A stretch of 41,649 bases of DNA from a virus. Positions 9,707 through 16,925 of this stretch are shown in pieces. The translations under genes and the position numbers were made by a program. The notes beneath the pieces were generated by a model. That model saw only the letters and a list, made by a program, of their open reading frames with translations, did no database searches and was not told the DNA's origin. The stretch is from positions 1-41,649 of IMG/VR virus record IMGVR_UViG_3300044726_000200. One strand, given 5' to 3'. How positions within the stretch are numbered: position 1 is the first letter of the stretch; each line of letters opens with the position of its first letter.

Positions 9707-9735
9707 TTGTGCTATCTTCGCCACCTGTTTATACC
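9707..9735 (+). promoter_or_regulatory. Promoter for the replication operon, possibly giving a leaderless message
   Basis: TTGTGC (9707-9712), a 17-base spacer and TATACC (9730-9735) form a good sigma-70 promoter. The ATG at 9742 lies where transcription should begin, and there is no Shine-Dalgarno before it. The message may therefore be leaderless. On the minus strand the same bases give GTATAAAC, a possible -10 for the divergent 9695 gene, so the two promoters overlap. Confidence 0.55.
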
Positions 9736-9741
9736 CCGCTC

Positions 9742-9966
9742 ATGGCTAAGACAACAGCGACACAGACCTATTCCATCGCCCAGGCCGCCAAAGTTCTCGG
9801 TGTTCCGCCGAGGACGATCTACGGCCAGGTCGCCAGGGGTGAGCTGCCGGCCATTCGTCTCTCGGGGCGTCTCCTCATATTGCGCGCGGTGATCGACGGG
9901 ATTCTGCTGTTGGGACTGCCGAAAGAACCAGCGGTTCCGGTCGAGGCGGATGACGAACAATGGTAG
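9742..9966 (+). CDS. Excisionase/MerR-like helix-turn-helix protein, 74 aa
   Basis: Residues about 9-45 (SIAQAAKVLGVPPRTIYGQV, then LPAIRLSGRLLI) match the excisionase-family winged HTH (HTH_17 type) that binds DNA with a short wing. There is no integrase in the genome, so it is unlikely to be an Xis for a local recombinase. I infer a role as a transcription regulator at the divergent promoter or as an origin-binding helper. It is the first gene of the long rightward replication operon. Its ATG coincides with the predicted transcript start. Its stop overlaps the next gene (ATGGTAG). Confidence 0.75.
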   Translation: MAKTTATQTYSIAQAAKVLGVPPRTIYGQVARGELPAIRLSGRLLILRAVIDGILLLGLPKEPAVPVEADDEQW

Positions 9967-12511: not shown

Positions 12512-13683
12512 ACGACACACCCCCCTTCCCAAGAGGCCATTCACCCCTTGGCATGAGCGTCCTTGAACGCCGCTTCATGTGTCCCGGATCGATGGCGGCC
12601 GAGGAAGGCAGACCCAACACCACCAGCGTTTACGCGAAGCGCGGGACCAATCTGCACGAGGTCGCCGCCGTCTGCCTGCGTCAGAACCTCAACCCCCTGG
12701 AGGTTATCTCCGAAGACCCCGAGGGCGCCGAACTGGTTCTTGCTTACATCATTGAAGTCCAGTCCGCGTATGATCGTCTCCGCGGCGATCTGCTGGTCGA
12801 GCACCCGTTCGAGATCGCGTCCCTGTCCGACCTTTACTGGGGGACCGCCGACGCGGTGATCATTTCCCCGCCGGTCCTCTACGTCGCGGATTTCAAGACC
12901 GGCCGGGGTCACGCCGTCCCCGTCCGCCGTCCCGACGGAAGGGTCAACCTGCAGCTGGGTGGCTACGGTTTGGGGGCGCTGCACGGCCTGCCGGCGGGCC
13001 TCGCCCATGAGATCACGAAGATCGAACTCGTTGTCGTCCAGCCCGCCCTTGGGCCGCCCCAGAGGACCGTGATGACGACGGCCGAGGTGCAGGATCTCGC
13101 CGCCGACCTGATCGAGATCGCGGAACGCGCCCTGGATCCCGACGCCGTCAGGATCGCGGGTGATCACTGCCGGTTCTGCCGCGCCGCTGGCGACTGCCCC
13201 GCGTTCCGCGCCCGCGCCGTCGCGGCCATTGGACTGGAGTTCGAAGTGGAAATCGAGAACGCCGTCACCGTTCTTCCCGATCCGGCGAAGATATCCCGTG
13301 AGCGGCTGGGAGGGATCCTGGAAGGCGCCGAGATCATCGATGAGTGGCTGACGGCGGTTCGCGCCCACGCCAAGGCGCTCGCGGACAAGGGCGAGGAGAT
13401 CCCCGGCTGGAAGCTGGTCGATAAGCGCGGCAGGCGGGTATGGGCCGACGAGCGCGCGGCGATCGCGTTCTTCGAGAAAACACCGGAGGCGTTCGTCGAG
13501 AAACTGCATTCGCCCACGCAGCTGGAGAAAGTGCTGAAACAGCTGAAGCGGAAGAAACCAGCGGAATGGAATACGCTGGTCACGATGTCTGATCCCGGAA
13601 CCGCCCTGGTTCCGGCGTCCGACCCGCGCGCGGCGGTCGCTCCGCGCATCGAGTTTGAACAGGTTAAACAGGAGGAACAATGA
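12508..13683 (+). CDS. DUF2800 protein, PD-(D/E)XK nuclease
   Basis: This 391-aa protein belongs to the DUF2800 family, which has the RecB/Cas4-like nuclease core. GTNLHEVAA (about 47-55) gives the motif I histidine. WGTADAVI (D115) and VADFKTG (D128, K130) give the metal site. CRFCRAAGDCPAF near 220-232, together with C25 (RRFMCPGS), is the layout of a four-cysteine iron-sulfur site as in Cas4 and AddB. It probably trims or resects DNA ends. DUF2800, DUF2815 and polymerase A occur together in many phages, as here. The GTG start overlaps the previous stop; a downstream ATG (residue 16) is another option. Confidence 0.88.
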   Translation: MNDTPPFPRGHSPLGMSVLERRFMCPGSMAAEEGRPNTTSVYAKRGTNLHEVAAVCLRQNLNPLEVISEDPEGAELVLAYIIEVQSAYDRLRGDLLVEHPFEIASLSDLYWGTADAVIISPPVLYVADFKTGRGHAVPVRRPDGRVNLQLGGYGLGALHGLPAGLAHEITKIELVVVQPALGPPQRTVMTTAEVQDLAADLIEIAERALDPDAVRIAGDHCRFCRAAGDCPAFRARAVAAIGLEFEVEIENAVTVLPDPAKISRERLGGILEGAEIIDEWLTAVRAHAKALADKGEEIPGWKLVDKRGRRVWADERAAIAFFEKTPEAFVEKLHSPTQLEKVLKQLKRKKPAEWNTLVTMSDPGTALVPASDPRAAVAPRIEFEQVKQEEQ

Positions 13684-13886
13684 AACCGCATGACAGCATA
13701 ACCGCCGAACGCGTCATGGAGGCGTGTGAACGCCACGCGACCGGGCTGGACAATCCCGGCTTCTGCTTCGCCTGTGGCGCCGACGCCGAGGGTGTCGAGC
13801 CGGATGCCCGCCGATACGAGTGCGAGGCATGTGGCGCGCGTGAAGTATACGGCGCCGAGGAATGCCTCATGATGCTACCCATCTGA
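13680..13886 (+). CDS. Zn-ribbon protein, 68 aa
   Basis: FCFACGAD and YECEACGARE, about 20 aa apart, form a classic four-cysteine zinc ribbon. A strong AGGAGG sits 4 nt upstream of the ATG at 13680, in the leader TTAAACAGGAGGAACA. The start overlaps the nuclease stop. The place between nuclease and SSB-like genes suggests a DNA-binding helper, but that is inferred from fold and context only. Confidence 0.8.
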   Translation: MKPHDSITAERVMEACERHATGLDNPGFCFACGADAEGVEPDARRYECEACGAREVYGAEECLMMLPI

Positions 13887-13911: not shown

Positions 13912-14457
13912 ATGGCCAGCAAACCAACGGTCGCCACGATCCGCCTCGGCCCCGGCAGGCTCTCCTTCCCTTCGTTGATCGAGCCGTCCTCGTTCAATGG
14001 CGGCGACGAGAAATACACCACGACATTACTGCTACCGCCCTCTTTCGACATCGCTCCGGTCATGAAGGCGCTCAACGATTTGTGCGTGGAGGTGTGGGGC
14101 AAGGACATGAAGAAGTGGCCGCCCAATGCCCGTCGTCCCGAGAGTGTCGTCCGCCGCGCCGAGGAGAAAGAGCACATGGCGGGCTACGAGGCGGGCTGGC
14201 ACTTCATCTCCGCCTCGTCGAGGGAGAAGCCGCTCATCGTGGACGCGATGCTTGAACCCGTCACCGACCCGCGCGCGGTTTACGCCGGAAGGTGGGCCAA
14301 CATCAGCGTCCGTCCGTTCGTTTATAATAACATTGGCGTTGGGGTCAGTCTTGGCCTCGGCAACGTCCAGCTGCTGAAACACGACGGCGCCTTTGGACGC
14401 ACCTCGGCGCGCCAGGATTTCGACATCGTGGCGGAAGAGATGGAAGACGAGTTCTGA
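13912..14457 (+). CDS. DUF2815 family, putative ssDNA-binding protein
   Basis: This 181-aa protein has the marks of DUF2815: FNGGDEKYTTTLLLPP near residues 29-44, a central charged helix, FVYNNIGVGVSLGLGNVQLL near 140-160 and an acidic C-terminus ending VAEEMEDEF. The fold is OB-like and related to T7 gp2.5. The acidic tail is how such proteins contact polymerase and helicase. It would coat single strands during replication. The ATG at 13912 has AAGGA 10 nt upstream. Its neighbours, DUF2800 and DNA polymerase A, are the usual partners. Confidence 0.82.
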   Translation: MASKPTVATIRLGPGRLSFPSLIEPSSFNGGDEKYTTTLLLPPSFDIAPVMKALNDLCVEVWGKDMKKWPPNARRPESVVRRAEEKEHMAGYEAGWHFISASSREKPLIVDAMLEPVTDPRAVYAGRWANISVRPFVYNNIGVGVSLGLGNVQLLKHDGAFGRTSARQDFDIVAEEMEDEF

Positions 14458-14468
14458 GGGGAACGATC

Positions 14469-14663
14469 ATGTCCGACGAACCGATGATGCAATTCTTCGC
14501 GTACGAACATCTGCCGCCTCACCTCCAGGAGGTCAGCTCCCGGTTTCACGCTTTGGCGGACTGGATCGTCGCGAACCTGCCGCGTAATCCAGAGCGTACG
14601 GTGGCGTTGCGGAAGCTGTTGGAAGCGAAAGATTGCGCCGTGCGCGCGAAGCTCTACCAGTAG
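14469..14663 (+). CDS. Acb2/Tad1-like hairpin-domain protein (candidate anti-CBASS sponge), 64 aa
   Basis: The protein starts with an aromatic motif (FFAYEHLPPHLQ), then a helix (SSRFHALADWIVANLP), the ERTVALRKLLEAKDCAVRA block and little else. This layout, with an aromatic segment, then an LA-x-x-I/L helix, P-R/D-x-x-E-R/K-T/S-x-A-L-x-K-L-x-E-A, is what I recognise as the Acb2/Tad1-type hairpin domain. Characterised Acb2 proteins bind cyclic di- and trinucleotides made by CBASS and so block that defence. Activity here is inference from sequence form. The ATG has GAGGGG 7 nt upstream. It lies in the replication operon between the SSB-like and polymerase genes. Confidence 0.65.
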   Translation: MSDEPMMQFFAYEHLPPHLQEVSSRFHALADWIVANLPRNPERTVALRKLLEAKDCAVRAKLYQ

Positions 14664-14664
14664 C

Positions 14665-14889
14665 ATGCCAGCACCCGCGCTCACGCCATACGAGCAACGC
14701 CGGGATGCGCTCGCCAGGATACTGGCGGCGTTGCTCATGGAGCTGCGTGACGATCCAACCGGCGCCGATCTGCCCCAGGAGTGCTGGTGGCCGACGCGGG
14801 CCAAGGCCGCCGCGATTCTGTTCCTCATTTCGAAAGGCGAAGAGCATGAGGCGGCGAGGCGTGATCTGGGGCTGGAATGGCGGGTATGA
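14665..14889 (+). CDS. Hypothetical protein, 74 aa
   Basis: This small helical protein begins one base after the previous stop and overlaps the polymerase start in an ATGA. A long helix (EQRRDALARILAALLMELRD) is followed by an ECWWPTRAKAAAILFLISKG segment that may be amphipathic rather than a true membrane span. It is not recognised. The tight spacing suggests it is made with the polymerase in a fixed ratio. Confidence 0.7.
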   Translation: MPAPALTPYEQRRDALARILAALLMELRDDPTGADLPQECWWPTRAKAAAILFLISKGEEHEAARRDLGLEWRV

Positions 14890-16925
14890 CCGACATCAAC
14901 GATCTTCTCTTCCTCGATCTTGAAACCCGGTCAACCGTCGATCTCAGGAAGACCGGCGCGTACGTTTACGCGTCGGACCCGTCCACGTCGGTCACCGTCG
15001 CCCGCCTCGCTCTCGGCGCGGAGGAGCCGTGGGAATGGCGGCCGGGGCGAGACCTCCTCCCGAAATACCGCGACCACCTGGAAGACCCCACGAAAGAGGT
15101 CGTCGCCCATAACGCCCAGTTTGAGCGGTTGATGATCGAGGGCGTCCTCCACCCACGTCATGGCTGGCCGCTCGTGCCGATCGACCGGTGGACCTGCACG
15201 ATGGCCCGCGTCCGCGCCCAGGGTCTGCCCGCCTCGCTCGACGGCGCGGGAATGGCCCTCGGCCTGCCGATCAAGAAAGACGGCGACGGCTGGCGCCTCA
15301 TGCTCCAGATGTGCAAGCCCCGCCGGATGGCGGACGGCTCCCTGGCGTGGTGGGAGGACGCGGATCGCATGGCGCGCCTGTCCGATTACTGCTCCGTCGA
15401 TGTGAAGGTGGAGCGCCAGGTTTTCCGCTCGACATCCGCCCTGACCCAGGCGGAACTCGATGTATGGGATCTGACCGAGACGATGAACGACCGGGGCGTT
15501 CGGTTCGATCTCGATTTCGTCGCCGCGGCCTCTGTCGTCGCCGGGGAGACGGTGAAGCTGCTTAATCACGACATGAACCTGTTGACCGTCGGCGCCGTGA
15601 AGGCCGCGTCGAATGTCGGCGCGCTCAAGAAGTGGCTCATGGGGCGCGGCGTGGACCTGGCCCCGCCGCCGGATCTCGCTCGCGAGGGGGAGCTGCTCGA
15701 CGAGCTGGAAGAAGTCGAGGAGGAAGAGGAGAAAATCCCCGACCTGCGGCGCCGCGATGTCCAGCGCCTGATCGCCGATCCCCGCGTGGGGCCGCTGGAA
15801 AAGGCCGTCCTGAAGAACCGCCTGGAGGCCGGCAAGATCTCGGTCAAGAAACTGGCGGCCATCCATGAGCGGTCGAACGAAGACGGCCGCGTGCGGGGCC
15901 TGCTGGGCTACCACGGGGCGTCCACCGGGCGGTATATCAGCCAAGGGTTACAGATACAGAACTTCCCGCGTGACGTTGTCCACGACTGGGAAGGCCACCG
16001 CGAACTGCTCGACCACGGCGCCGCCATGGTGGACGCGATCGCCGGCCCGCCGCTCGATGTCATCTCGAAGATGCTGCGCGGCGCGATCATTCCGGCGGAT
16101 GGTCACGAGATCGCGGCGGGCGATTTCGCCTCCGTCGAGGCGGTGGGCGTGGCGTGGCTGGCGGGTCAGGATGATCTGGTCGAAGCCTTCCGCGCGAAGC
16201 GGAAGGTCTACGAGGAGATGGGCGGCCGCGTTTACGGGATCGATCCGGCGACGATCAGAAAGGACAGCACCCCCAGACACGTCGGAAAAACACTTTTGCT
16301 TGGCTGCGGCTACCAGATGGGATGGTACAAGTTCCGCGAAACCGTCATCGCCCAGGTCGGTACCATCCTCGCCCCGGAAGAGGCGGAACGCGCGGTCAAC
16401 GTCTATCGCGAGACCTACGCGCGGATCCCTTTACTGTGGCGCGACATGAACCAGGCGGCGCTCGACGCCGCGCGCCATCCCGGAACGACGACCACCGTGG
16501 CGGGTGGACGCATCAGGTTCCGGCAGGACCGTAAGTGGCTGCGGATGCGCCTGCCGTCGGGGAGATACATCTGGTACTCCCAGCCCCTGATCGAGCAAGG
16601 TCGTTTCGGTAACGATTGCGTGACCTACATGGCGGTCAATTCGCTGAACAAGAAATGGGAACGGCAATCAACCTACGGCGGCAGGCTGACGGAGAACGCC
16701 GTGCAGGGCCTCTGCCGCGACCTCCTCGTCCACGCCGCGCTGCGCCTGGAACGGGAGGGCTACCGCCCGCTCACGCTGATCCACGACGAGGTCGTCTGCG
16801 AGCCACCCGCGGGCTTCGGGAGCGTGGACTCTATGTGCGCGCTCATGAGTGAGCTACCGGCGTGGGCGGAGGGCTTCGCCCTGCGGGCGGAAGGCTCGCG
16901 CGGGCCAAGGTATATGAAGTCATGA
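14886..16925 (+). CDS. DNA polymerase, family A with 3'-5' exonuclease
   Basis: This is the phage replicative polymerase, 679 aa. The exonuclease domain shows FLDLET (D11, E13), AHNAQFE (about 74-80) and YCSVDVKVE (Y168, D172), so proofreading looks intact. Polymerase motif A is AGDFASVEAVG (D413), motif B is RHVGKTLLLGCGYQ (about 464-477), and motif C is LIHDEVV (H633, D634, E635). An acidic insert (DELEEVEEEEE, about 272-282) sits between exonuclease and polymerase parts. There is no 5'-3' exonuclease domain. I start at 14886 because the ATG overlaps the previous stop (ATGA); an ATG at 14877 would add three residues. Confidence 0.94.
   Translation: MTDINDLLFLDLETRSTVDLRKTGAYVYASDPSTSVTVARLALGAEEPWEWRPGRDLLPKYRDHLEDPTKEVVAHNAQFERLMIEGVLHPRHGWPLVPIDRWTCTMARVRAQGLPASLDGAGMALGLPIKKDGDGWRLMLQMCKPRRMADGSLAWWEDADRMARLSDYCSVDVKVERQVFRSTSALTQAELDVWDLTETMNDRGVRFDLDFVAAASVVAGETVKLLNHDMNLLTVGAVKAASNVGALKKWLMGRGVDLAPPPDLAREGELLDELEEVEEEEEKIPDLRRRDVQRLIADPRVGPLEKAVLKNRLEAGKISVKKLAAIHERSNEDGRVRGLLGYHGASTGRYISQGLQIQNFPRDVVHDWEGHRELLDHGAAMVDAIAGPPLDVISKMLRGAIIPADGHEIAAGDFASVEAVGVAWLAGQDDLVEAFRAKRKVYEEMGGRVYGIDPATIRKDSTPRHVGKTLLLGCGYQMGWYKFRETVIAQVGTILAPEEAERAVNVYRETYARIPLLWRDMNQAALDAARHPGTTTTVAGGRIRFRQDRKWLRMRLPSGRYIWYSQPLIEQGRFGNDCVTYMAVNSLNKKWERQSTYGGRLTENAVQGLCRDLLVHAALRLEREGYRPLTLIHDEVVCEPPAGFGSVDSMCALMSELPAWAEGFALRAEGSRGPRYMKS

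Follow-up and report, generated by a model that had tools for sequence, protein, structure and literature searches.

A 64-residue protein of a widespread phage family and its probable distant kinship with the Acb2/Tad1 hairpin

Known hairpin sponges and the 64-aa gene

Sponges are one of the main means by which phages switch off immunity that works through nucleotide signals; every sponge family known so far has shown which signals matter. The Acb2 proteins T4 Vs.4 (PDB 7uq2) and p26 Acb2 (PDB 8h2j, 8h2x) consist of a short N-terminal helix and two antiparallel helices, the layout also predicted for the protein studied here, but are 88–93 aa long and carry a long insertion between the helices that has no counterpart in the 64-aa protein. 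Tad1 (PDB 7uav, 8kbe) has a C-terminal hairpin that Pfam places in one domain with Acb2 and that is related to the family described below; it carries an extra N-terminal beta-sheet domain (123–138 aa), whereas the 64-aa protein is hairpin only. Acb2 and Tad1 differ widely in sequence and overlap in their ligands (review PMC12043709). Closest in size are the short Acb2/Tad1-hairpin proteins (PF24729, phrog_1454), most of which, among those retrieved, are 65–80 aa long; the nearest solved structure among them is 'Acb2 homolog 43' (PDB 9ptq, 76 aa). The sequence-only reading had called the 64-aa protein an unusually short member, which does not hold because gp101 of mycobacteriophage Xandras, a phage reported to encode a protein that sequesters cyclic nucleotides (PMC11953737), has 65 aa and matches PF24729 at 5e-16.

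The window, i.e. the whole stretch of DNA analysed, is a 41.6-kb IMG/VR virus record. Its 64-aa ORF (Table 1) runs from an ATG to a TAG codon and contains the FAYEHLPP and ERTVALRKLLEAKDCAVRA motifs, with position, length and motifs exactly as first reported. It is a real gene and not a chance ORF, because relatives occur at no fewer than 595 viral loci as well as in phage, bacterial and plasmid records. The gene is part of a tightly packed operon, separated by 11 bases from the upstream ssDNA-binding gene and by one base from the downstream 74-aa ORF, and genes for an SNF2-type helicase and a DUF2800 exonuclease are found further upstream of the ssDNA-binding gene. The location between SSB-like and polymerase genes was likewise read correctly (PF10991 upstream, PF00476 downstream), with the 74-aa ORF preceding the polymerase. 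A promoter scan of the operon found none. Two other small genes were observed in the window: a 68-aa ORF (13680–13886) with two CxxC pairs (zinc-ribbon-like), located between the exonuclease and ssDNA-binding genes and without a Pfam or PHROG match, and, upstream of the helicase, a gene for an excisionase-like helix-turn-helix protein (9730–9966; HTH_17, 3e-10).

Table 1. Features of the 64-aa gene and its neighbours (window coordinates).
Feature	Position	Strand	Basis
Window-family gene, 64 aa	14469..14663	+	PHROG 1761/5120; very probably a distant homologue of the Acb2/Tad1 hairpin
GAGGGG, ribosome-binding-site-like, ending seven bases 5' of the ATG	14456..14461	+	Sequence; putative function
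Codons 5–10, predicted short N-terminal helix	14481..14498	+	AlphaFold2 model
FAYEHLPP, residues 10–17, contains His14	14496..14519	+	Family conservation and joint alignments
Codons 17–36, predicted long helix 1, contains near-invariant Ser23	14517..14576	+	AlphaFold2 model, alignments
Codons 41–60, predicted long helix 2; signature RKLLEAKD(C/A)xVRA (residues 48–60)	14589..14648	+	AlphaFold2 model, alignments
Enc34-type (Gp2.5-like) ssDNA-binding protein, upstream neighbour	13912..14457	+	PF10991 1.6e-26, phrog_112 6e-36
74-aa ORF of unknown function, downstream neighbour	14665..14889	+	No PHROG match; no Pfam match above cut-off
Family-A DNA polymerase, further downstream	14877..16925	+	PF00476 4e-15, phrog_17 4e-87

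Family spread, annotation and gene context

The 64-aa protein is a full member of phrog_1761 (1e-27) and phrog_5120 (2e-20), two groups with no function assigned in PHROG, and it contains both signatures of what we call the window family, RKLLEAKD(C/A)xVR and F-x-Y-x-HLP. Relatives were present at a minimum of 595 viral-contig loci, with identities of up to 84% among the matches listed, in 322 of 50,697 phage records, in 65 bacterial contigs and in 25 plasmid records, and are carried by phages and prophages of many phyla. Across the family, the charged residues of helix 2 (RKxxEAKDxxVR) are about 99% conserved. Members are almost always annotated as hypothetical; a few bear the names 'anti-TRAP' or 'occludin', apparently by mistake, among them a protein of Acinetobacter phage Acba_15 ('occludin homology domain protein'), whose label apparently goes back to a weak chance Pfam match. 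A literature search that stopped short of the recent sponge surveys (e.g. Tal 2026; Hadary 2025) found no paper naming PHROG 1761/5120 or PF24729.

The window family is not tied to replication genes. Replication genes of the window type were found near only 4 of 145 related loci, so that the position in a replication operon, which had been taken as meaningful, is not a trait of the family; the argument that this position would provide early expression is weak because the gene occupies many different phage modules. Its neighbours vary by phage and include terminase, holin, DNA topoisomerase subunit, baseplate and methyltransferase-like genes; a search across the related loci for a constant partner gene found none, and a separate PF24729 gene above the cut-off was absent from all 14 annotated phages that encode a family protein. 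A tiny, near-invariant protein that is spread over many phyla and has no fixed neighbours is what would be expected of an accessory protein directed against an unchanging small molecule. The cargo-like position and the extreme conservation fit such a target, with a conserved host protein as the main alternative.

Some relatives have additional segments. In Ochrobactrum phage OH (L203:765-1133, 122 aa, annotated 'anti-TRAP') an N-terminal CxxCxG zinc-finger-like segment, which had no match above cut-off, is fused to the hairpin, and the phrog_1761 model, with 148 positions, has space for an N-terminal part of this kind. At two viral-contig loci (L298 and L299, match at 601-804) the frame continues for about 200 residues past the hairpin into a prohead-protease-like sequence, a possible fusion.

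Profile and fold comparisons with Acb2/Tad1

The sequence-only reading led to the expectation of a match to an Acb2/Tad1 profile, which was not found: PF24729 (Acb2/Tad1 hairpin domain, curated cut-off 27 bits) did not match the 64-aa protein even at E 10, and gave no match across its own virus record or in another 19 virus records in which the window family occurs. The best family member, from Brevibacterium phage AGM5, reached 16.4 bits (E 0.011) and that of Vibrio phage martha E 0.057, both below the cut-off; in each of the two proteins this sub-cut-off match to PF24729 was the sole Pfam match. Genuine Acb2 proteins were recognised by the same profile, including T4 Vs.4 (7e-20), the Xandras protein mentioned above and the Acb2 of Microbacterium phage NoodlelyBoi (4e-14). 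Single-sequence searches of Pfam, NCBIfam and PDB with the 64-aa protein returned nothing useful; a Dps match in NCBIfam (0.014) was far below the cut-off, and a weak match to FICD was dismissed as far below cut-off or noise.

Comparisons of protein families were more informative. The 64-aa protein matched phrog_1454 at 7.4e-5, and this group contains the short Acb2s (Xandras gp101 1.3e-29, T4 Vs.4 7e-4); reciprocally, a viral-contig protein (L120), a short Acb2 whose signature is complete, matched phrog_1761 of the window family at 1.3e-4, and the NoodlelyBoi Acb2 matched it weakly (0.056). When 30 or 63 window-family proteins were compared with 28 short Acb2s by hhalign, the probability was 92–94%, with an ungapped alignment over 34–35 columns that extends from helix 1 across the LP..(R)E turn into helix 2. 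Decoys built from neighbouring ORFs (129 families) reached at most 7.6% against the window family and 10% against Acb2; shuffling the columns of the Acb2 alignment 200 times never yielded more than 13%. Among 16,922 ORFs plus Acb2s, the window-family HMM retrieved 71 Acb2 proteins at E<1 beyond the family itself, and the other 7 ORFs at E<1 were family members or fragments by inspection or score. In the reverse search at E<1, the Acb2 HMM found 78 ORFs of the window family and 8 further ORFs; all of the non-labelled ORFs among the matches listed were family members except one unrelated ORF (0.14). These cross-matches have modest E-values (2e-4 to 1), and closely related sequences make up many of the Acb2 rows, yet the matches rank cleanly. 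A profile of Vs.4 only gave 0.4% against the window family, which marks a limit of power because Vs.4 reached just 29% against the short Acb2s themselves; in profile searches of the PDB, Acb2 homolog 43 ranked third and fourth at E-values (0.56–0.73) that are not significant.

The AlphaFold2 monomer model of the 64-aa protein (63-sequence alignment) has a mean pLDDT of 95.2 and contains the paired helices that had been anticipated, preceded by a short N-terminal helix (residues 5–10, 17–36 and 41–60). A short Acb2 modelled likewise has helices at 3–7, 16–39 and 44–66, and the predicted layout, a short N-terminal helix followed by an antiparallel two-helix hairpin, is that of Acb2 (comparison PMC12043709). 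In a fold search of BFVD, the first six matches look like the window family, three of them from named phages also found by sequence, and most of the named matches after these were 'Acb2/Tad1 hairpin domain-containing protein', the first two at E 0.046 and 0.072 with probability 1.00 and later ones at E 0.3–1.5; as these E-values alone are not significant, the evidence lies in the clustering of Acb2/Tad1 names. A Foldseek search of the PDB with the 64-aa model returned no Acb2/Tad1 chain, only assorted helical hairpins, and is a weak test: it has little power for small hairpins because the model of a genuine short Acb2, used as a control, placed Vs.4, Tad1 and Acb2 near the top only at E>=0.83.

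From these profile comparisons, the window family is very probably a distant homologue of the Acb2/Tad1 hairpin. At the computational level, the profiles and models together show that the two families have a common ancestor in the two-helix hairpin and that their protomers are predicted to share one fold.

Pocket residues and candidate functions

The short Acb2s and the 64-aa protein have in common a Phe...His-x-Pro N-terminal motif, an LA..I...LP turn followed by E, an A-x-L/T-K-L-x-E-A stretch in helix 2 and the predicted helix layout; helix 2 of T4 Vs.4 and p26 Acb2 also aligns with the window protein, KTKLKEASMWACRA with LRKLLEAKDCAVRA. They differ in their signatures, which read (G)REK..A.TKLEEAMFWANAAIAR in the short Acb2s and (N)PERT.ALRKLLEAKDCAVRA in the window family, i.e. 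Thr is exchanged for Arg, Trp for Cys/Ala and the helix-1 Arg for Ser, and the window family stays below the Pfam cut-off. Residue equivalences were taken from two joint alignments of the window family with Acb2s. Acb2s have a basic residue where helix 1 starts, and the window family does not: its Ser23 (97%) aligns with an invariant Arg of the short Acb2s (Arg23), with Lys23 of T4 and with Lys26 of p26, the last of which we take to contact phosphate. The Trp of the Acb2 EEAMFWAN signature is Cys/Ala56, and the loop preceding helix 1 is about six residues shorter than in the short Acb2s. The aromatic position of the N-terminal loop (Tyr8 in T4 Acb2, where exchange for Ala makes the protein binding-deficient; PMC12657230) is a near-invariant His in the window family, His14 (99%), which aligns with the conserved His of the short Acb2s. 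Arg48 (99%) aligns with the invariant Thr of the short Acb2s and with Thr68 of T4 Acb2, the mutation T68M of which lowers binding (PMC12657230), so that the 64-aa protein has His and Arg at the two T4 positions needed for full binding. Helix 2 is conserved to an equal degree in Acb2 and in the window family.

As judged from these alignments, the window family retains the scaffold along with one binding position and has other near-invariant residues at no fewer than three conserved Acb2 positions, which points to a functional site with different chemistry and not to decay. The ligand is probably not identical to that of Acb2, because the pocket residues differ in a conserved way. What stood of the Acb2/Tad1 identity first proposed is the hairpin, on the strength of the reciprocal PHROG matches, the decoy-controlled profiles and the predicted fold; what the data did not support is membership of Acb2 itself, and with it binding of 3',3'-cGAMP or cA3, given the failure of PF24729 and the replaced pocket residues. 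As near-invariant Arg, Cys/Ala and Ser stand in place of the signature Thr, Trp and helix-1 basic residue, the sequence argues that the 64-aa protein should not be filed as Acb2, and we propose the name 'Acb2/Tad1-related hairpin protein'.

Two-helix hairpins are simple, common folds, and together with the weak, far sub-cut-off Dps match in NCBIfam (0.014) and the assorted helical hairpins returned from the PDB this could mean that any charged two-helix hairpin would resemble Acb2/Tad1 by convergence or composition; we regard this as very improbable, since decoys and shuffles reached a maximum of 13% as against 92%, unrelated ORFs were absent among the Acb2-ranked matches of the window-family HMM, and no gap interrupts the alignment from helix 1 across the turn to helix 2, with the LP..(R)E turn present in both families. 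If the relationship is accepted, the protein might be an Acb2 in function, binding 3',3'-cGAMP and cA3 with altered residues that represent another solution for the same ligands. The common fold and homology, His14 at the Tyr/His position required for binding, and the precedent of Acb2 and Tad1, which diverge in sequence yet overlap in ligands (PMC12043709), speak for this; it is nevertheless unlikely, as the position of T4 Thr68, where mutation weakens T4 Acb2 (PMC12657230), is an almost invariant Arg, neither the Trp nor the basic residue of helix 1 has been kept and PF24729 does not match. We doubt that either of these classical molecules is the main ligand.

The hairpin could also act as a scaffold on a conserved host or phage protein (e.g. 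a transcription, replication or stress-signalling factor) instead of a nucleotide, with the highly conserved charges of helix 2 forming a protein contact face, and the placement of the gene among replication genes in the window would suit such a role. That these genes recur at only 4 of the 145 related loci, that there is no constant partner gene and that Acb2, a small-molecule binder, is equally conserved in the same helix makes a protein target unlikely. The explanation we favour, to which we give about equal weight for and against, is that the 64-aa protein comes from a large, as yet uncharacterised family of phage proteins that is sister to the Acb2/Tad1 hairpin and consists of sponges with an altered ligand. 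By analogy with Acb2 and Tad1, it would form a small oligomer with inter-protomer pockets lined by His14 of the N-terminal loop and by Arg48, Lys49, Glu52, Lys54, Asp55 and Arg59 of helix 2; these pockets would capture and retain an alarm signal of the host, of nucleotide type, so that CBASS, Thoeris, Pycsar or a similar defence is not set off. A role as a nucleotide-signal sponge or as another counter-defence protein appears to us evenly balanced with other roles. More tentatively, and with the balance leaning against it, the family may be a new, very widespread sponge class on the Acb2/Tad1 hairpin that captures a different host immune nucleotide, for which the candidates would include cyclic mononucleotides, derivatives of ADP-ribose or an as yet undescribed signal, with the conserved Arg/Lys/Asp/Arg face of the helix together with His14 as the binding surface. 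Hundreds of phages and prophages thus carry a mostly unannotated family that is now linked with controls to the Acb2/Tad1 fold and whose conserved pocket changes predict a different ligand, which makes the function of the family, and possibly also an unknown immune signal, accessible to direct tests with the 64-aa protein.

Two phrog_5120 members, Mycobacterium phage JAMaL gp69 (L442:1075-1314) and gene 94 of prophage prophi79-1 (L444:454-717), have kept the core DGPELxAGLRKLLEA(K/R)DCF and lost the FxYxHLPP motif, which suggests that helix 2 is the essential part. In prophi79-1 a gene with a PAPS-reductase domain, annotated as a nucleotidyltransferase, adjoins the family gene (L444:710-1296), and in a Labrenzia phage a PAPS-reductase-domain gene (L202:1803-2579) lies 1.4 kb from it.
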